NCBI GenBank assembly: GCA_024697655.1
Contig: JAILFI010000129.1
Coordinates: 1 to 11,516 of the forward strand
Length of the DNA stretch: 11,516 nucleotides
DNA from: Clostridiales bacterium
Lineage (GTDB): Bacteria > Bacillota_A > Clostridia > Peptostreptococcales > Anaerovoracaceae
Direction of reading: 5' to 3'
Shown: one piece after another, positions 4,796-11,199 of the stretch
How the letters are laid out: the number at the start of each line of letters is the position of its first letter
How positions within the stretch are numbered: the first letter of the stretch is position 1
Position numbers and translations under genes: made by a program
The notes under the pieces: model-generated
What the model was told of the DNA's origin: nothing
Databases searched by the model: none
What the model saw: the letters and a program-made list of their open reading frames with translations, nothing else

Positions 4796-6745
4796 ATGAG
4801 CACTATTTTATTTCTAATCGGTTTTCCGCTATTAGTAGCAATAGTCCTTTTAGTACTCAAAGAGGATAGAGCGAGAGACGTAGTCGTCAAGGTGTCCGCG
4901 GCAGTGATCGCGGCGGCGTCCATCTATCTCGTTGCCACCAATGTGTCTTCCGGCGGGGAATACTTTGCGGTTCCCAAAGCGGAGACGATCGGCAACGTCA
5001 TGATGGCCATCGAAGTATGCCTGGCGCTCGTCATCATCGTCCTCGGTATCCAGAAGAAGCGGTATCTGGCTCCGGTCCTTTCGATCATCCAGACACCTCT
5101 TATGATCTGGTTTGAGTTGAAGCAAGGACATCACATCGACGTGCAGTATCCGATGTACGTGGATCATCTCGGGATGATCATGGTCCTGATCGTCGGTATT
5201 GTCGGTTCCCTCATCGCCGTGTTCGCCACGGGCTACATGAAGGATTTCCAGGCGCACGCGAAAGGGAAGGACAGAAGACCCTGGTTCTTCTTCCTGATCT
5301 TCCTGTTCCTGTCGGCAATGTTCGGACTGGTCATGTCCAACAACCTGATCTGGATGTACTTCTTCTGGGAGATCACCTCGCTTGTCTCGTTCTTCATGAT
5401 CGGGTACAACGGCCTGTTCCACAAAGAAGAGGAAGAAGACAAGATCGCGACCCGCAACGCGTTCCGCGCACTGGTCATGAACCTGGGCGGCGGACTAGGC
5501 TTTGCGATCGGTATCGTTCTGCTCGGGTCGAACTTTGACACGCTGGAACTGTCCAACATGATCCTGCTCGGCAAGATGGGACAGCCGGTCTTCATCGTCG
5601 CGATGTTCCTGGCCTTCGCCGGCATCACGAAGTGCGCACAGATGCCGTTCAACAGCTGGCTGCTTGGTGCCATGGTCGCGCCGACGCCGGTCTCGGCACT
5701 GCTCCACTCCTCGACGATGGTCAAGGCGGGCGTGTTCCTCATCCTCAAGCTGGCACCGGTCCTCGGCGGCAACCTTGCGGGCACGATGGTCTATCTGGTC
5801 GGCGGCATCACATTCCTGCTGGCGTCCTTCGCGGCGATCTCGCAGAGCAATGCGAAGAGAGTGCTGGCGTACTCCACCGTTGCCAACCTCGGCCTGATCG
5901 TCACCTGCGGCGGCATCGGCACACCGGCTGCGGTCTGGGCAGGTACGCTGCTCATCATCTTCCATGCGATCACCAAGTCTCTCCTGTTCCTCTGCGTCGG
6001 TACTGCGGAGCATCACATCGGCAGCCGCGACATCGAGGATATGGATGGTCTGTTTGACAGAATGCCCAAGCTGGCGGCCTGCATGCTGATCGGTATCGCC
6101 GGCATGTTCCTGGCTCCCTTCGGTATGCTCATTTCCAAGTGGGCGACGATGGTCACCTTCGTCGACGCGGGCAATCCGCTCCTCATCCTGATCATCTGCT
6201 TCGGCAGTGCCGCGACAGCGTTCTATTGGAGCAAGTGGATGGGCAAGCTGGCCGCGATCGTTGCGAACAGAGAGAACATCGAGAAGACGGTCCACGGTGC
6301 GGAGAGCTTCGTCCACGTCACGCTGACGGCGCTCGTCGTGCTGGTCTGCATCTGCTTCCCGTTCATCTCCAAGACCATGATCGTTCCGTATCTGTCGGGC
6401 ACCGCGGTCTTCGGTCAGGCGATCGATACACTGCCGCTGCAGAACAGCAACATGATGGTCATGGTCATCATGGTCGCTGTGCTGGTCCTGCTCTTCGCCT
6501 TCTTCTTCGGACGGACGAAGAAACGCATCGTGCCGATCTACATGGCCGGTGTCAACCAGGGCGACGACCTCACGTTCGAAGATGCCATGTTCCAGCCCAA
6601 ACCCGTGTCGCTGCGCAACTGGTATATGGAAAGCTATTTCGGCGAATTCAAGATGAATGTCATCGGCGTTGCCACCACATCTGTGATCATCCTTGGTTTC
6701 ATTGGCATGGTCGTCGGTGCGCTGATCGGTTATGGAGGTATGTAA
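4796..6745 (+). CDS. echA: Energy-converting hydrogenase membrane subunit EchA (NuoL/MrpA-like ion pump)
   Basis: EchA is the large membrane subunit of Ech hydrogenase, homologous to the antiporter-like NuoL of complex I, and it carries out proton or sodium translocation driven by ferredoxin oxidation. The 649-residue protein is almost entirely hydrophobic with roughly 14-16 membrane helices. Residues expected for the ion path are present: E192 (FFWEITS), K279 (GITKCAQMPF), K310 (SSTMVKAG) and K448 (LISKWATM), around the signature MPFNSWLLGAMVAPTPVSALLH. A soluble segment (about 575-620) precedes a last helix, as in other EchA proteins and unlike plain NuoL. AGGAGG at 4785-4790 is five bases before the ATG. 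The first 22 codons are AT-rich and use TTA, CTA and ATA, unlike the CTG/CTC-rich rest of the gene. It is the first gene of echABCDEF. Confidence 0.93.
   Translation: MSTILFLIGFPLLVAIVLLVLKEDRARDVVVKVSAAVIAAASIYLVATNVSSGGEYFAVPKAETIGNVMMAIEVCLALVIIVLGIQKKRYLAPVLSIIQTPLMIWFELKQGHHIDVQYPMYVDHLGMIMVLIVGIVGSLIAVFATGYMKDFQAHAKGKDRRPWFFFLIFLFLSAMFGLVMSNNLIWMYFFWEITSLVSFFMIGYNGLFHKEEEEDKIATRNAFRALVMNLGGGLGFAIGIVLLGSNFDTLELSNMILLGKMGQPVFIVAMFLAFAGITKCAQMPFNSWLLGAMVAPTPVSALLHSSTMVKAGVFLILKLAPVLGGNLAGTMVYLVGGITFLLASFAAISQSNAKRVLAYSTVANLGLIVTCGGIGTPAAVWAGTLLIIFHAITKSLLFLCVGTAEHHIGSRDIEDMDGLFDRMPKLAACMLIGIAGMFLAPFGMLISKWATMVTFVDAGNPLLILIICFGSAATAFYWSKWMGKLAAIVANRENIEKTVHGAESFVHVTLTALVVLVCICFPFISKTMIVPYLSGTAVFGQAIDTLPLQNSNMMVMVIMVAVLVLLFAFFFGRTKKRIVPIYMAGVNQGDDLTFEDAMFQPKPVSLRNWYMESYFGEFKMNVIGVATTSVIILGFIGMVVGALIGYGGM
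6734..6739 (+). promoter_or_regulatory. Ribosome binding site of echB inside the end of echA
   Basis: GGAGGT, the site for the ATG at 6747, lies within the last codons of echA. The in-frame ATG at 6732 would sit on top of this site and is therefore unlikely as the start. Stop and start are one base apart, so translation is probably coupled. Confidence 0.75.
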
Positions 6746-6746
6746 T

Positions 6747-7613
6747 ATGGCTAAGATGATCATTTGTGTAGTCGCATACCTGATCCTGGCCCCCGTGGTC
6801 GGCGGTCTCCTGGCCGGTATCGACAGAAAGATCTCGGCGAGGATGCAGGGCCGTGTCGGTCCTTCCATCCTGCAGCCGTTCTACGATGTTCTCAAACTGC
6901 TTGAGAAGGAAAAGATCACGGTCAACAGAGTGCAGGATTTCTATATTTTCTGCTTCTTCCTGTTCGTGGTCGTCACAGGCTGCATGTTCTTCGCGGGACA
7001 GAGCCTGCTGATGGTGATGTTCACGCTGACGCTTGCCAGTGTGTTCCTCATCGTCGCCGCATTCTCCTCGAATTCCCCCTATGCACAGGTCGGTGCCGAG
7101 AGAGAAATGCTGCAGATGATGGCGTATGAACCCATGGTCCTCATCGCCTGCGTCGGTTTCTACATGTACACCGGCAGCTTCAATGTGTATGAGATCATGG
7201 CGACGCCCAAGATGCCGGTCATCTATCTGTGCGGCATCTTCGTGGGATTCGTCTTCATCCTGACCATCAAACTGAGAAAAGCACCGTTCGACCTGTCCAT
7301 GTCGCATCACGCGCATCAGGAACTGGTCGGCGGTCTGAAGACCGAGTTCTCCGGAAGCACGCTGGCGCTGGTCGAGGCGGCTCACTGGTACGAGAACGTC
7401 TTCCTGTTCGGTATGGTCTTCCTGTTCTTCTCCAATGGTGAGATCTCCGGGATCATCACAGGGGTTGTCGTCGCGCTGGCGGCGTACTTCCTCGAGATCC
7501 TGATCGGCAACAGTTTTGCAAGAATGAAGTGGCAGGTCGCGCTCAACTCGTCCTGGCTGGTCGCACTGGTCCTGGGCGGCGCCAACCTGTTTGCACTGAT
7601 CTTCATGAAGTAG
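6747..7613 (+). CDS. echB: Energy-converting hydrogenase membrane anchor subunit EchB (NuoH-like)
   Basis: EchB is the NuoH homologue that docks the soluble hydrogenase module onto the membrane and links electron transfer to the pump. The 288-residue product has about eight membrane helices. Family motifs in order are RMQGRVGPSILQPFYD (after helix 1), AEREMLQMMAYEP in the middle, and RKAPFDLSMSHHAHQELVGG followed by KTEFSG. These correspond to the acidic and charged loop motifs of NuoH/EchB facing the cytoplasm, where the connecting subunits bind. It begins one base after the echA stop and is followed 15 bases later by echC. Confidence 0.94.
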   Translation: MAKMIICVVAYLILAPVVGGLLAGIDRKISARMQGRVGPSILQPFYDVLKLLEKEKITVNRVQDFYIFCFFLFVVVTGCMFFAGQSLLMVMFTLTLASVFLIVAAFSSNSPYAQVGAEREMLQMMAYEPMVLIACVGFYMYTGSFNVYEIMATPKMPVIYLCGIFVGFVFILTIKLRKAPFDLSMSHHAHQELVGGLKTEFSGSTLALVEAAHWYENVFLFGMVFLFFSNGEISGIITGVVVALAAYFLEILIGNSFARMKWQVALNSSWLVALVLGGANLFALIFMK

Positions 7614-7628
7614 AAGGAGGGGAATGGC

Positions 7629-8153
7629 ATGTCATATATCACTAAATCTCCGTGGATCATCCACTATGACGGCTCCAGCTGCAATGGATGCGACATCGAA
7701 GTTCTCGCCTGCCTGACTCCTATGTATGACGTCGAACGTTTCGGCATCATCAACACCGGCAACCCCAAGCACGCCGATGTGTTCCTGGTGACCGGCTCCG
7801 TCAACGAGCAGAACAAGAACGTCGTCAAGCAGATCTACGAACAGATGCCTGAGCCGAAAGTCGTCGTGGCGGTCGGTATCTGCGCCAACAACGGCGGCAT
7901 CTTCAAAGAGTGCTACAACATCCAGGGCGGTGTCGACACGGTCATCCCGGTCGACTGCTACGTCCCCGGCTGCGCGGCGAGACCGGAAGCCATCATCGAC
8001 GGTGTCGTGAAGGGGCTCGGCGTCCTCGCTGAAAAGAGAGAAAAACTGCGTCAGGAACAGGCGGCGGCAAAGGCCGGTGCCAAGGCAGCGCCGCAGCAGG
8101 CGATGCCGGTCCTGGACGATCCGGCTGAAGCGAAAGAGGAGGAAGAAGCGTAA
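7629..8153 (+). CDS. echC: Hydrogenase small subunit EchC (NuoB-like, proximal [4Fe-4S])
   Basis: EchC carries the [4Fe-4S] cluster nearest the [NiFe] site and passes electrons between EchF and EchE. The four cluster cysteines expected in the NuoB/EchC family are present: C18 and C21 (CNGCDIE), C85 (VGICANNGG) and C115 (YVPGCAARPE). An AGGAGGGG at 7615-7622 precedes the ATG; the nearer ATG at 7624 is in another frame. The protein is 174 residues; after about residue 137 comes a tail of roughly 37 residues rich in Ala, Lys and Glu, ending in KEEEEA, with no sign of a fold. The tail resembles in composition the linkers of EchF three genes downstream. The stop overlaps the echD start by one base (TAATG). 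Confidence 0.94.
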   Translation: MSYITKSPWIIHYDGSSCNGCDIEVLACLTPMYDVERFGIINTGNPKHADVFLVTGSVNEQNKNVVKQIYEQMPEPKVVVAVGICANNGGIFKECYNIQGGVDTVIPVDCYVPGCAARPEAIIDGVVKGLGVLAEKREKLRQEQAAAKAGAKAAPQQAMPVLDDPAEAKEEEEA

Positions 8154-8509
8154 TGGATAAGAATATGAACAAGATCCAGAACTTCCGTGAGATCACGGCC
8201 TCTGAGCTTCTGCCCACGGTCAGAAATCTCAAGGAAGACGGACACCGTTTCGTACAGATGTGCGGCATCACTCAGGATGACGGCGCGATCGTCATGTATT
8301 CCTTCGACAAGGACTACGAGATGACCAACTACAAACTGCACGTCAAAGAAGGCGAAACAGTCGAAAGCATCACCGGTTCCTACTGGAATGCGTTCGTTTA
8401 TGAGAATGAAGTCCACGATCTGTTCGGGATCGAATTCCTGCACAGCGCGCTGGATTTCCACGGCAATTTCTTCAAGACCGCGGAACCGACACCGTGGAAG
8501 AAAAAGTAG
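8153..8509 (+). CDS. echD: Hydrogenase subunit EchD (NuoC-like)
   Basis: EchD is the small soluble subunit related to the 30-kDa NuoC protein. It has no metal site and helps hold the hydrogenase module together. The 118-residue product is of normal size for EchD and ends with the family signature YENEVHDLFGIEFL followed by LDFHGNFF, matching the E-x-D-[ML]-[FY]-G-[IV] region of NuoC. The start codon overlaps the echC stop (TAATG), and a GAGGAGG at 8136-8142 inside echC serves as ribosome binding site, so the two are translationally coupled. It is followed after 18 bases by echE. Confidence 0.92.
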   Translation: MDKNMNKIQNFREITASELLPTVRNLKEDGHRFVQMCGITQDDGAIVMYSFDKDYEMTNYKLHVKEGETVESITGSYWNAFVYENEVHDLFGIEFLHSALDFHGNFFKTAEPTPWKKK

Positions 8510-8527: not shown

Positions 8528-9610
8528 ATGGGTAAAAGAACGATCATTCCTTTCGGACCTCAGCATCCCGTACTTCCGGAGCCGGTCCATCTCGACCTGG
8601 TGATTGAGGATGAGAAAGTCGTCGAAGCGATTCCTTCCATCGGCTTTATTCACAGAGGCCTCGAAAAGCTGGTTGAAAAGAAAGAATACACCGAAATGGT
8701 CTATGTCATCGAGCGTATCTGCGGCATCTGCAGCTTCGGCCACGGCTGGGGCTACTGCGGCGCCGTCGAGAACGCCATGGGGATCGAGATCCCCGAAAGA
8801 GCGGAAACGATGCGTACGATCTGGCATGAACTGTCCCGTCTGCATTCCCACCTTCTGTGGCTGGGTCTTCTGGCTGACGGCTTCGGCTTTGACAGCCTGT
8901 TCATGCACTGCTGGAGGATCCGCGAAACGATCCTCGACATCTTTGAGGAAACCACCGGCGGCCGCGTCATTTTCTCGGTCTGCAAAGTCGGCGGTATCCG
9001 CAAGGATGTGGACAACGAATACCTGAAGGGCGTTGTCGAGAAACTGCACGCGATCGAAGACGACATCCGCAGCCTGACGACGGTCTTCATGAACGACACA
9101 TCCGTCAAGAACCGTCTCTGCGGCGTCGGCAAACTGACGAAAGAAGAAGCGATGGATCTGTGCACGGTCGGCCCGATGGCAAGAGCGTCCGGGCTCGATC
9201 TGGATCTGCGCAACGGCACACCGTCCTACCAGCGCCTCGGCTTTGAGCCGGTCGTCCGTACGGAAGGTGACTGCTACGCCAGATGCATGGTACGTATCGG
9301 TGAGATCTTCCAGTCGATCGAACTGATCGAGAAGGCAGTGGAGATCATCGAAGACGGTCCCATCGAAGTTGCTGTCAAGGGCAACATGGAAGGCGAAGCG
9401 ACGTTCCGTCTGGAACAGCCCCGCGGTGGTGCATTCTACTATGCCAAGGGCTTTGACAAGGGGACCAAGTTCCTCGAGAGAATGCGCGTGCGTACTCCCA
9501 CCAACATGAATATTCCTGCAATGACAAAGATGCTTCAGGGCTGTGATCTGGCGGACGTTCCGATGGTCGTCCTCACCATTGACCCCTGCATCAGCTGCAC
9601 AGAAAGGTAG
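8528..9610 (+). CDS. echE: [NiFe] hydrogenase large subunit EchE (NuoD-like)
   Basis: EchE holds the [NiFe] active site that reduces protons to H2 (or the reverse). Both pairs of metal-binding cysteines are there: C65 and C68 in RICGICSFGHGW and C354 and C357 in DPCISCTER. This distinguishes it from NuoD of complex I and from non-hydrogenase relatives that lost these cysteines. The protein ends three residues after the last cysteine, with no C-terminal extension, so it should not need the maturation endopeptidase that trims many other [NiFe] hydrogenases. HypA-F maturation proteins are still needed for the metal centre and are not in this window. An AAGGAGG at 8514-8520 precedes the ATG. The length of 360 is typical of group 4 enzymes. 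Confidence 0.96.
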   Translation: MGKRTIIPFGPQHPVLPEPVHLDLVIEDEKVVEAIPSIGFIHRGLEKLVEKKEYTEMVYVIERICGICSFGHGWGYCGAVENAMGIEIPERAETMRTIWHELSRLHSHLLWLGLLADGFGFDSLFMHCWRIRETILDIFEETTGGRVIFSVCKVGGIRKDVDNEYLKGVVEKLHAIEDDIRSLTTVFMNDTSVKNRLCGVGKLTKEEAMDLCTVGPMARASGLDLDLRNGTPSYQRLGFEPVVRTEGDCYARCMVRIGEIFQSIELIEKAVEIIEDGPIEVAVKGNMEGEATFRLEQPRGGAFYYAKGFDKGTKFLERMRVRTPTNMNIPAMTKMLQGCDLADVPMVVLTIDPCISCTER

Positions 9611-9614
9611 GTGA
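9608..9614 (+). promoter_or_regulatory. Ribosome binding site deciding the echF start
   Basis: TAGGTGA, complementary to the 3' end of 16S rRNA, lies five bases before the ATG at 9620 and overlaps the echE stop. An in-frame GTG at 9611 lies within it and would add only three residues; the ATG is preferred. Confidence 0.6.
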
Positions 9615-9619
9615 GGGTA

Positions 9620-10579
9620 ATGGCAACATTCAAAATCGGAAAAGTCGTCCTCAAGAGTCTGTTCAAAAAACCGGCCACCAAGATCACGGCGGACCAGCCC
9701 ATCATCACAAAGAACTGGAAAACCCGTACCCGAGGCCACATCGATATCGATAAAGATCAGTGCATCCTCTGCGGGATGTGCATGAGAAAGTGCCCGGCCA
9801 ACGCGATCACCGTTGACCGCGCCGGCAGCACCTGGGAGATCCAGCGCATGCAGTGCATCCAGTGCGGCAGCTGCGTAGAAGCCTGCCCGAAGAAGTGCCT
9901 GTCCATGGCGCCGGAGTACACAGAGCCCGGTACGGAGAAGGTCGTTGACAAGTTCGATATCCCGAAGAAGGAAAAGGCCGCGCCCAAAGCAGCTCCGGCA
10001 GCAGCGGCCGCAGCACCGGCGGGTGACGGTCCGGAAGGGGTCGCGCTCGACACATCCACCTGCATCGTCTGCGGGCTGTGCGCGAAGAACTGCCCGGTGG
10101 ACGCGATCACGGTCGACCGCAAGGAACGCACCTGGTCCATCGACAGGGACACCTGTGTCCAGTGCGGCATGTGTGTTGAGAAGTGCCCGAAGAACAGCCT
10201 GAGCATGGGTCCGACAGCCGGCGACAGTTTCACCATCCCGAAGGTGGAAAAGAAGGCTGCTCCCGCAAAGGAAGAGGCTCCTGCGAAAGAGGAGGCGCCT
10301 GCTGAGGCACCTGCCAAAGAAGAAGCACCGGCTCCCGCTGCAGCCCCTGCTGCGGACGGTCCGGACGGCATCGCGCTGGATGTGGAAAAGTGCATCCTCT
10401 GCGGTCTGTGCGCGAAGAACTGCCCGGTCGGCGCTCTCGAAGTTGACCGTAAGGATACCCGCACCTGGACCATCGACCGCGATGCGTGCATCGAATGCCA
10501 GGCCTGCGTCGGGGCTTGCCCGAAGGACGCATTGTCCTACGGACCTACGGCCGGCGACCGCTTCGTCATCCTGAAATAG
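9620..10579 (+). CDS. echF: EchF-type electron-entry subunit expanded to three tandem 2x[4Fe-4S] ferredoxin modules
   Basis: EchF (NuoI-like) takes electrons from reduced ferredoxin and passes them to EchC. Residues 1-119 form a normal EchF: a basic N-terminal segment, RTRGHIDID, and two cluster motifs (C48/51/54/58 and C79/82/85/89, the second followed by KKCLSMAPEYTEP). Usual EchF proteins end near here at about 120-140 residues. This one runs to 319 with two further 2x[4Fe-4S] modules: residues 137-208 (C148/151/154/158 and C179/182/185/189) and 247-319 (C258/261/264/268 and C290/293/296/300). All 24 ligand cysteines are intact. The modules are joined by linkers rich in Ala, Pro, Lys and Glu (about 119-136 and 209-246). 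Modules 2 and 3 keep EchF-like features (DRKxRTW-IDRD), so they probably arose by internal duplication. Last gene of the operon. Confidence 0.92.
   Translation: MATFKIGKVVLKSLFKKPATKITADQPIITKNWKTRTRGHIDIDKDQCILCGMCMRKCPANAITVDRAGSTWEIQRMQCIQCGSCVEACPKKCLSMAPEYTEPGTEKVVDKFDIPKKEKAAPKAAPAAAAAAPAGDGPEGVALDTSTCIVCGLCAKNCPVDAITVDRKERTWSIDRDTCVQCGMCVEKCPKNSLSMGPTAGDSFTIPKVEKKAAPAKEEAPAKEEAPAEAPAKEEAPAPAAAPAADGPDGIALDVEKCILCGLCAKNCPVGALEVDRKDTRTWTIDRDACIECQACVGACPKDALSYGPTAGDRFVILK
10028..10576 (+). repeat. Duplicated ferredoxin modules 2 and 3 within echF
   Basis: Module 2 (10028-10243) and module 3 (10358-10576) agree at about 48 of 72 aligned residues in a hand alignment. They share an identical 23-base stretch at 10076-10098 and 10406-10428, offset by 330 bases. 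Module 1 shares a further 14-base stretch (TGCATCCTCTGCGG) with module 3 at 9761 and 10391, so the copies look mosaic. Confidence 0.85.
10259..10324 (+). repeat. APAKEE-coding tandem repeat in the second EchF linker
   Basis: Three copies of an 18-base unit coding APAKEE lie at 10259-10276, 10277-10294 and 10307-10324, with a short APAE unit between the second and third, then an Ala/Pro run. Synonymous codons differ between copies, so the protein pattern is kept better than the DNA, which suggests selection for the linker property rather than a fresh slippage product. Confidence 0.85.
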
Positions 10580-10612
10580 GGAACGGAGCGCAAAGCAGCA
10601 TACTTGATCAGG

Positions 10613-10645
10613 AAAAGGACGAAGCCGTGTGCTTCGTCCTTTTTT
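10613..10645 (+). terminator. Intrinsic terminator of the ech operon
   Basis: The arms AAAAGGACGAAGC (10613-10625) and GCTTCGTCCTTTT (10631-10643) pair over 13 bases around a CGTGT loop, and the T run continues to 10645. It lies 33 bases after the echF stop. The A run on the 5' side could allow some function in the opposite direction. Confidence 0.93.
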
Positions 10646-10672: not shown

Positions 10673-10701
10673 TTGACAGACAGCCCGCAGGCTGCGATAA
10701 T
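10673..10701 (+). promoter_or_regulatory. Strong promoter upstream of the transporter gene
   Basis: TTGACA (10673-10678), a 17-base spacer and GATAAT (10696-10701) with an extended TGC before the -10 make this the best promoter match in the window. The spacer holds a dyad CAGCC-CGCA-GGCTG (10681-10694), a possible operator. The start should be near 10708. Confidence 0.85.
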
Positions 10702-10738
10702 GAGCGCGTGAGAAGTCAGAATCTGTTGATTTGAGATT

Positions 10739-10762
10739 GCCACCCTTTGGGGTGGCTTTTTT
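10739..10762 (+). terminator. Intrinsic terminator in the leader of the transporter gene (attenuator or small-RNA end)
   Basis: GCCACCC (10739-10745) pairs perfectly with GGGTGGC (10750-10756) around TTTG, and TTTTTT follows at 10757-10762. It lies between the promoter at 10673-10701 and the ribosome binding site at 10766-10772, so transcripts from that promoter would often stop after about 55 bases unless read-through is controlled. I see no clear competing antiterminator pairing in the short stretch 10708-10738. It also would act as a second stop for the ech operon. Confidence 0.85.
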
Positions 10763-10776
10763 AACAGGAGGTTATC

Positions 10777-11199
10777 ATGAGTATGTATTGGCCGATCGCG
10801 CTGGCGGTCTTCGCAGACGTTTTCTATCAGGTCGCGGCGAAGTCGACACCGGAAGGGATCAATCCGTTTGCCTCGCTGACGGTGACCTATATGGTCGGGG
10901 CAGCGGCTTCTGCCGTGATCTTCTTTGCTATGACAAAAGGCGGCAGTCTGCTGCAGGAATGGGGGCAGGTCAACTGGGCGACATTCCTGCTGGGGGTCGC
11001 GATCGTGGGTCTGGAGGCGGGCTCGATCTATATGTATAAAGTGGGGTGGAACGTCAATACGGGGTATATCGTCAAATCCTGCTTTCTCGCGATCGCGCTC
11101 GTAGCTGTCGGTTACCTGCTCTACAAAGAGCAGATCACGCCGACGAAAGTTGCCGGGCTTGCGGTCTGCATGACGGGACTGTATCTGCTCAACCGGTGA
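10777..11199 (+). CDS. Half-size EamA/DMT-superfamily membrane protein
   Basis: The 140-residue product is hydrophobic with about five membrane segments (roughly residues 4-22, 33-52, 65-85, 92-110 and 118-138). The end, YLLYKEQITPTKVAGLAVCMTGLYLLNR in outline (KE at about 116-117, then a last helix with G-x-x-L), follows the pattern of one EamA domain of drug/metabolite transporters. Full-length members have ten helices in two such domains, so this would have to work as a dimer, as the SMR proteins do. The substrate cannot be inferred. AGGAGGT at 10766-10772 is directly upstream. It is transcribed from its own promoter behind an attenuator-like terminator, between ech and nifJ; no functional link to either is evident. 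Confidence 0.75.
   Translation: MSMYWPIALAVFADVFYQVAAKSTPEGINPFASLTVTYMVGAAASAVIFFAMTKGGSLLQEWGQVNWATFLLGVAIVGLEAGSIYMYKVGWNVNTGYIVKSCFLAIALVAVGYLLYKEQITPTKVAGLAVCMTGLYLLNR

Follow-up and report, generated by a model that had tools for sequence, protein, structure and literature searches.

Introduction

In fermenting anaerobes, energy conservation is linked to H2 formation by the [NiFe] hydrogenase Ech, and this H2 feeds methanogens. The ligands of the [NiFe] site lie in CxxC motifs, one at each end of the large subunit. An Ech hydrogenase with an EchF subunit has also been described in Methanosarcina barkeri. In another ferredoxin-accepting complex, RnfB is encoded with the other rnf genes and has a distinct N-terminal Fe-S domain.

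The EchF subunit of Thermoanaerobacter kivui carries two 4Fe-4S clusters, according to the consulted excerpts of PMC4320612. Like the protein reported here it is a subunit of an ech cluster and the presumed entry point for ferredoxin, but it has two clusters and not six. Higher numbers are given, in the consulted excerpts of PMC3087415, for the polyferredoxins EhaP (6 clusters), EhaQ (10), EhbK (14) and MvhB (12); all of these are encoded in hydrogenase transcription units, and Eha and Ehb are energy-converting. These Eha, Ehb and MvhB polyferredoxins are separate gene products of methanogens, whereas the array described here is fused to an EchF core in a bacterium. The C-terminal domain of RnfB contains two to seven clusters depending on the organism (PMC12174285, in part), and varying numbers of fused ferredoxin modules with flexible linkers have been reported for it (PMC9588780, in part). 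RnfB is alike in being a ferredoxin-accepting subunit of an ion pump with a variable, partly flexibly tethered set of clusters, but it belongs to another complex, whereas the gene studied here sits in an ech operon. For accessory Fe-S subunits of the CooF/HycB type, a role of the extra clusters in supplying group 4 hydrogenases with electrons has been proposed (excerpts of PMC4320612 and PMC5861303); these are separate proteins, whereas the clusters considered here lie in tandem inside EchF.

The initial annotation of this DNA knew of no characterised Ech with such a layout, and our search of open-access literature (subscription papers and preprints lie outside this scope) agrees: the consulted excerpts of PMC4320612, PMC4478896, PMC13040438 and PMC4153887 describe no multi-module EchF, and no paper matched both EchF and polyferredoxin.

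The ech operon and its extended EchF

The window, i.e., the whole stretch of 11,516 nucleotides that was analysed, contains a complete echABCDEF operon with echF as its last gene (Table 1). The six genes have NuoL-, NuoH-, NuoB-, NuoC-, NuoD- and NuoI-like products, and a CxxC is found at both ends of EchE (CGIC and DPCISC). No ech-named NCBIfam model was among the matches listed for the window proteins, so that the ech gene names rest on gene order and homology. The predicted product of the operon is an Ech-type energy-converting [NiFe] hydrogenase of group 4. HypD is present in the genomes of six of seven relatives, the exception being G014.

Table 1. Position of the ech genes, of the EchF segments and of the downstream hairpin in the window
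Feature	Position	Strand	Description
echA	4796..6745	+	NuoL/antiporter-like membrane subunit
echB	6732..7613	+	NuoH-like membrane subunit
echC	7629..8153	+	NuoB-like small subunit; acidic A/K/E tail
echD	8153..8509	+	NuoC-like
echE	8528..9610	+	[NiFe] large subunit; CGIC near N-terminus, DPCISC at C-terminus
echF	9620..10579	+	319 aa; three 2[4Fe-4S] modules, i.e., six CxxCxxCxxxCP motifs
EchF N-terminal segment, residues 1-38	9620..9733	+	common to relatives
module 1, residues 39-103	9734..9928	+	EchF/NuoI-like cluster domain
linker 1, residues 104-138	9929..10033	+	35 aa, A/K/P rich
module 2, residues 139-203	10034..10228	+	
linker 2, residues 204-248	10229..10363	+	45 aa, A/P/E/K rich
module 3, residues 249-314	10364..10561	+	66% identity to module 2
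hairpin and T-run 3' of echF	10611..10645	+	RNA-fold result; absent from the terminator pattern-scan list

The hairpin downstream of echF is probably the operon terminator. Beyond it, the region 10673-11199 carries a gene for a 140-aa EamA-like small transporter, a promoter-like TTGACA-17-GATAAT (three such sites in the region against 2.7 expected) and a terminator-like hairpin at 10739-10756. The acidic A/K/E-rich tail at the end of EchC (8060-8153) resembles the EchF linkers in style.

The echF ORF opens with the ATG at 9620, and an alternative in-frame GTG lies three codons upstream, at 9611. The initial annotation had read six intact CxxCxxCxxxCP motifs in a single chain of 319 residues in the echF position of a complete operon, and this was confirmed on the ORF and by motif scan. 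Scanned for the motif at the DNA level, the whole window gave exact matches starting at 9761, 9854, 10061, 10154, 10391 and 10487, all of them within echF, and 200 shuffles of the sequence gave no match. Motif ligands account for 24 of the 25 cysteines, the remaining one being C93. Pfam Fer4 matched six stretches, the two motifs of a pair are spaced by 31, 31 and 32 residues in modules 1, 2 and 3, respectively, and the modules share 46-66% identity with one another.

The models TIGR01971 and NF006221 exceeded their cut-offs on this protein, and so did several other ferredoxin models, because the repeats sum up. One of the models above cut-off was TIGR01944 (rnfB; 95.4 bits, cut-off 68.7), whose best stretch spans profile positions 107-172 only, the ferredoxin part. 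The gene lies in an ech operon and Pfam reveals only Fer4-type families and an LdpA Fe-S domain, which argues against an RnfB. Likewise, the EchF core present as module 1 separates the protein from stand-alone polyferredoxins such as MvhB, EhaP/EhaQ and EhbK. It has the shared N-terminal segment followed by a 2[4Fe-4S] domain, in the echF position, but with six motifs and 319 residues it departs from an EchF that binds two clusters only. As judged from its sequence, the protein is an extended EchF, not a canonical one.

Distribution of extended EchF

A protein search covered 7,999 candidates whose length was 0.55-1.75 times that of the query, a range in which single-module EchF is under-represented. 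It gave 211 matches; the 120 that were listed and counted, taken regardless of gene context, carried 4 (46 proteins), 6 (45), 8 (18), 10 (8), 7 (1), 9 (1) or 12 (1) motifs. A second set, anchored on EchE, comprised 79 genome loci, 67 of which had a closed EchF in the echF position, with 2 (29 loci), 4 (30), 6 (5) or 8 (3) motifs. Ten of the 79 loci gave no EchF: in six of them (L041, L056, L065, L069, L070 and L074) the sequence ends at most 207 bases from EchE, L028 offers 1,587 bases of room beside EchE and yet no EchF was found, and in L076, L077 and L079 the EchE identity is only 40-41% and the scanned stretch held no motif protein. The EchF genes of L011 and L019 run off the contig; they were kept outside the count of 67 and outside the trees, and their first modules were retained among the 70 analysed below. 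In two loci fetched later (L152 and L153), EchF frames with 10 motifs start 3 bases after EchE. The loci L155, L159 and L163, with 6, 8 and 6 motifs, are outside the tree.

In a survey of 296 genomes of the family of the nearest relative, 87 had an EchF core. The open frames were 110-445 aa long, and 22 of 88 had at least 241 aa; frame length exaggerates some of these proteins, since the 445-aa frame has four motifs. The best-scoring 30 of the 88 loci, a choice biased towards close relatives, had 2 (5 loci), 4 (16), 6 (7) or 10 (2) motifs. Anaerovorax and Sinanaerobacter, which NCBI places in the family Anaerovoracaceae, are represented in this sample. A class survey of 391 genomes found the EchF core in 35, and only two of these proteins were long, those of G001 (327 aa) and G626 (261 aa, six motifs). 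The other 33 frames measured 122-178 aa, and the 28 fetched as loci were all single-module; the motif pattern missed eight of 29 loci, which direct reading assigned to the single-module type, and five further matches were judged by length alone. A usual length of 120-140 residues for EchF, as first assumed, is therefore roughly right, but single-module frames reach 178 aa, and the Moorella echF gene measures 555 bp (PMC13040438, in part).

Six motifs in the echF position are also found in an isolate record, that of Anaerovorax odorimutans SL.3.17 (L067), and a six-motif protein match comes from the isolate record of Ihubacter massiliensis (P0036). Further extended forms occur in Candidatus Allocopromorpha and in many MAGs named 'Clostridiales Family XIII'; some record titles among the relatives refer to goat, water buffalo or roe deer gut. 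The MAG with a 94% identical EchE has an EchF of the same architecture, with 327 aa. An assembly artefact is unlikely, since independent MAG and isolate records share the six-motif architecture. EchF of A. odorimutans DSM 5092 has only two motifs, and the EchE proteins of this strain and SL.3.17 are 82.2% identical.

These results reveal that multi-module EchF is real and widespread in one lineage, and that it is an elaboration of known parts. The homologue search for long EchF that had been proposed as a check did find six-cluster forms, mostly in one family. The same data correct the impression of a single oddity, because the echF position of relatives holds 2, 4, 6, 8 or 10 clusters; the window EchF, by this comparison of predicted proteins, represents one copy number in an array that varies across the lineage. 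Long EchF is concentrated in one family, the Anaerovoracaceae and their kin, with one probable separate origin outside it.

Origin and constraint of the extra modules

The comparison of modules covered 70 first modules, 51 extra modules and 12 fetched free ferredoxins. A motif spacing of 31 was observed in 70/70 first and 39/51 extra modules, and a spacing of 29 in all 12 free ferredoxins. A Trp lies between the motifs in 65/70 first modules, 48/51 extra modules and none of the free ferredoxins. The mean charge, a plain K+R-D-E count over fixed excerpts for the modules and whole ORFs for the 12 ferredoxins, was +0.9 for first modules, -1.5 for extra modules and -9.3 for free ferredoxins. Extra modules share on average 54.6% identity with one another within proteins and 55.9% between proteins; with first modules the values are 44.1% and 41.9%, and with free ferredoxins 35.2%. 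For most extra modules, the simplest origin is thus a duplication of the domain that EchF already has.

Modules 2 and 3 of the window have charges of -2 and -3, spacings of 31 and 32, and the Trp, and they look like duplicates of the EchF domain. Capture of a free ferredoxin as their source was considered; spacing, Trp and charge speak against it. Module 3, however, is on average as close to free ferredoxins (42.6% identity) as to first modules (42.5%), while its mean identity to extra modules is 47.3%. A different type of module caps five relatives (L017, L023, L038, L043 and L063), whose end modules have a charge of -5 to -11 and a spacing of 29-30 but keep the Trp. In the first four of them, the last module is 32-39% identical to its siblings and 45-68% identical between these proteins. 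These acidic end modules could have a source other than EchF.

All eight ligand cysteines are present in 51/51 extra and 70/70 first modules, which is partly by construction, the modules having been picked by motif. A ninth Cys column is occupied in 69/70 first modules against 26/51 extra modules. In the comparison with L001, the nearest relative (94% EchE identity), 64/65, 63/65 and 49/66 residues are identical in modules 1, 2 and 3, so that 17 of the 29 differing residues sit in module 3. The codon differences are 11 synonymous and 1 non-synonymous in module 1, 16 and 2 in module 2, and 17 and 17 in module 3. All ten gap columns fall in the linkers (9) or the tail (1) and none in the modules, and the aligned linker residues are 33/35 and 42/45 identical. 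This pattern of gaps and substitutions indicates that length changes are confined to the linkers and tail and that module 3 is clearly less constrained, its surface not being under tight constraint.

Changes in module number

On EchE trees, the cluster number requires 14 changes (trees of 68 and 64 rows) or 18 (74 labelled of 75 rows), counts that do not distinguish gain from loss. The six-cluster state alone requires five (68- and 64-row trees) or eight (75-row tree) gains or losses, three or six of which are forced by well supported branches. Four loci with a partial or odd EchE (L075, L078, L066 and L052) were in the first tree and were dropped from the next two, and L154 is unlabelled in the 75-row tree because its open frame extends far into another gene. 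The cheapest ancestral state is two clusters, with the root placed by choice on the two-cluster rows L048, L062 and L068. The closest pair that differs in number is L038 (8 clusters) and L045 (6), at 97.5% EchE identity; L002 (6) and L003 (4) share 89.7%.

EchE of G626 clusters with rows from Butyricicoccaceae, Oscillospiraceae and Acidaminococcaceae (support 99/95), a grouping of four branches of which three, that of G626 included, are flagged as long, and its highest EchE identity is 66%, to L003. Because this EchE groups outside the clade, the G626 array probably arose separately. Taken at the level of predicted proteins, the pattern suggests repeated lengthening, in these bacteria, of a tethered arm that would collect electrons.

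Predicted structure and free ferredoxin

The AlphaFold2 model of the window EchF (31 sequences) has a mean pLDDT of 76.8 and a pTM of 0.47. By block, pLDDT is 85-94 in the modules and mostly 39-61 in the linkers, and in linker 2 it falls below 50 at residues 213-216 and 218-244. The best PDB matches found with Foldseek were FwdF, followed by RnfB of A. woodii and NuoI-type subunits, and the HydB ferredoxin domain superposes at 1.5 A over 58 columns. The whole-chain TM-scores to FwdF are 0.18-0.19, and the model leaves the relative placement of the modules unfixed. What the predicted structure has in common with these PDB matches is the module fold alone.

Genes for ferredoxin and RnfC were analysed in 17 genomes with extended and nine with single-module EchF, drawn from a chosen 28 of the 79 loci, two of which were left out. 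A small ORF above the cut-off of NCBIfam NF058577, the clostridial-type ferredoxin, is present in 16/17 genomes with extended EchF (the exception is G018) and in 5/9 with single-module EchF. Extended EchF has not replaced free ferredoxin, because 16 of the 17 genomes keep the gene, and the idea that the extra modules make the enzyme less dependent on it is not borne out. RnfC exceeded the cut-off in 4/17 and 5/9 genomes, respectively, numbers too small, in genomes that need not be complete, to carry a claim on Rnf and EchF length.

Proposed role of the extra modules

We read the predicted enzyme as a six-subunit Ech [NiFe] hydrogenase in which EchF, the electron-entry subunit, has grown by tandem duplication of its 2[4Fe-4S] domain. 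We propose that the extra modules form a tethered arm of variable length which offers several docking ports for free ferredoxin and relays the electrons to module 1, and we give this reading a probability of about 0.48, just short of even. Module 1 would occupy the usual place of EchF and pass electrons on to the core formed by EchC and EchE. The other two modules would hang from it on flexible linkers and provide two more sites at which acidic free ferredoxin docks and gives up its electrons, which would then reach module 1 through collisions, the local concentration being high. It is plausible that a strongly acidic ferredoxin docks at such mildly charged modules. The arm could also donate electrons, should the enzyme work in the direction of ferredoxin reduction. 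If the potentials of modules 2 and 3 were too low, these modules could not collect electrons. Our own worm-like-chain estimate, with assumed persistence lengths of 4-8 A, gives a local concentration of 4.5-18 mM for linkers of 35-45 aa.

We counted in favour of the arm the split in pLDDT between modules and linkers, the gaps outside modules, the conserved ligand cysteines, the EchF-like spacing, Trp and charge, the retained ferredoxin, the repeated changes in module number and the chain estimate. The precedent of RnfB, a flexibly tethered ferredoxin acceptor of variable cluster number, was also counted (PMC12174285 and PMC9588780, in part). Counted against it were the substitutions in module 3, the closeness of this module to ferredoxins, the acidic end modules of five relatives, and the single module in 29 of the 67 closed EchF proteins of the EchE-anchored set.

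The differences between modules bear on an alternative in which they are docking ports specialised for different donors, e.g., pyruvate:ferredoxin oxidoreductase or [FeFe] hydrogenase, in direct contact with Ech. The 46-66% identity of the window modules and the distinct, acidic last module of L017, L023, L038 and L043 are in its favour, but none of the eight window ORFs run against Pfam is such a partner, modules 2 and 3 are alike, and frequent changes in number suit generic copies better; we regard it as unlikely. Frequent change is what copy-number drift predicts, i.e., recombination that expands and contracts the repeats with little functional effect. The 14-18 changes on the trees, the 8 and 6 clusters of L038 and L045, the fast divergence of module 3 and the linker-like tails on some single-module forms would all fit. 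Nevertheless, the ligands are intact in every extra module (partly by construction), module 2 differs from that of L001 by 16 synonymous and 2 non-synonymous codons, and long forms occur in numerous branches of the clade, with a probable further origin outside, so that we consider drift quite unlikely.

An electron store, in which reducing equivalents would be held on the extra clusters whenever ferredoxin reduction and H2 evolution fail to keep pace with each other, is suggested by chains with up to ten clusters in the echF position. The few electrons held per enzyme would, we argue, be small relative to the ferredoxin pool, and genes for free ferredoxin are retained, which makes a store very unlikely. 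The retained ferredoxin genes (16/17 genomes) also weigh on the view that the modules are tethered ferredoxins that replace the free protein. Each module does have the 2[4Fe-4S] fold, as the superposition on HydB illustrates, five relatives end in acidic modules with ferredoxin-like spacing (29-30), and module 3 of the window is equally near to ferredoxins and to first modules; most extra modules, those of the window included, differ from ferredoxins in spacing, Trp and charge, and even the five acidic ends keep the Trp. We judge replacement highly improbable. The reading of the extra modules as tethered ferredoxins in the initial annotation thus holds in part: they are extra 2[4Fe-4S] modules on flexible linkers at an EchF core, but in the window they resemble EchF duplicates, with the reservations just named for module 3 and the five acidic ends. 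FwdF was the top match in both fold and sequence, which speaks for a rigid wire or polyferredoxin like FwdF or MvhB. Against it stand the long linkers, predicted with low confidence, and, weakly, the low whole-chain TM-scores, which reveal no shared arrangement in a model that fixes no module placement; we hold a rigid wire to be the least probable of these alternatives.

Returning to the tethered arm, a wider proposal, which we make tentatively and rate somewhat below an even chance, is that the electron-harvesting reach of an ion-pumping hydrogenase is tuned, in one clade of clostridia and probably in at least one further lineage, by adding and removing copies of the EchF cluster domain on flexible linkers, from 2 to at least 10 clusters. 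The arm would be self-duplicated, capped in some members by an acidic ferredoxin-like end module, and convergent with RnfB and the methanogen polyferredoxins. These loci offer a natural series in which the cluster number is 2, 4, 6, 8 or 10 and the enzymes are otherwise similar, with 8 and 6 occurring at 97.5% EchE identity. It makes directly testable how extra tethered clusters affect a ferredoxin-linked pump in its rate, affinity and direction. The question is general, as extra tethered clusters are also seen in RnfB and methanogen polyferredoxins.

Other variants among the relatives

The N-terminus of EchF from L038, L043, L045, L156-L158 and L164 carries an extra hydrophobic stretch, e.g., IAVIIAALLLSAVVTARLG, which might anchor in the membrane a subunit that is normally peripheral. 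In L020, L030 and L032, module 2 has a spacing of 42 instead of 31 and does not match the Trp pattern, i.e., there is an insert in an extra module. The EchF of L063 (336 aa) has four clusters and an A/E/K-rich linker, followed by a Cys-free C-terminal segment of ~50 residues, which on visual inspection appears helical. Long Ala-rich tails, mostly with K, E and P and with no extra module, are present in the single-module EchF of L010, L051, L068, L138, L140, L142, L145 and L149; such a tail may be older than the added modules or a remnant of them. Finally, the Methanomassiliicoccales loci L054 and L058-L061 encode a single-module Ech whose EchE is 64-66% identical to that of the window, and a transfer between bacteria and archaea is possible.
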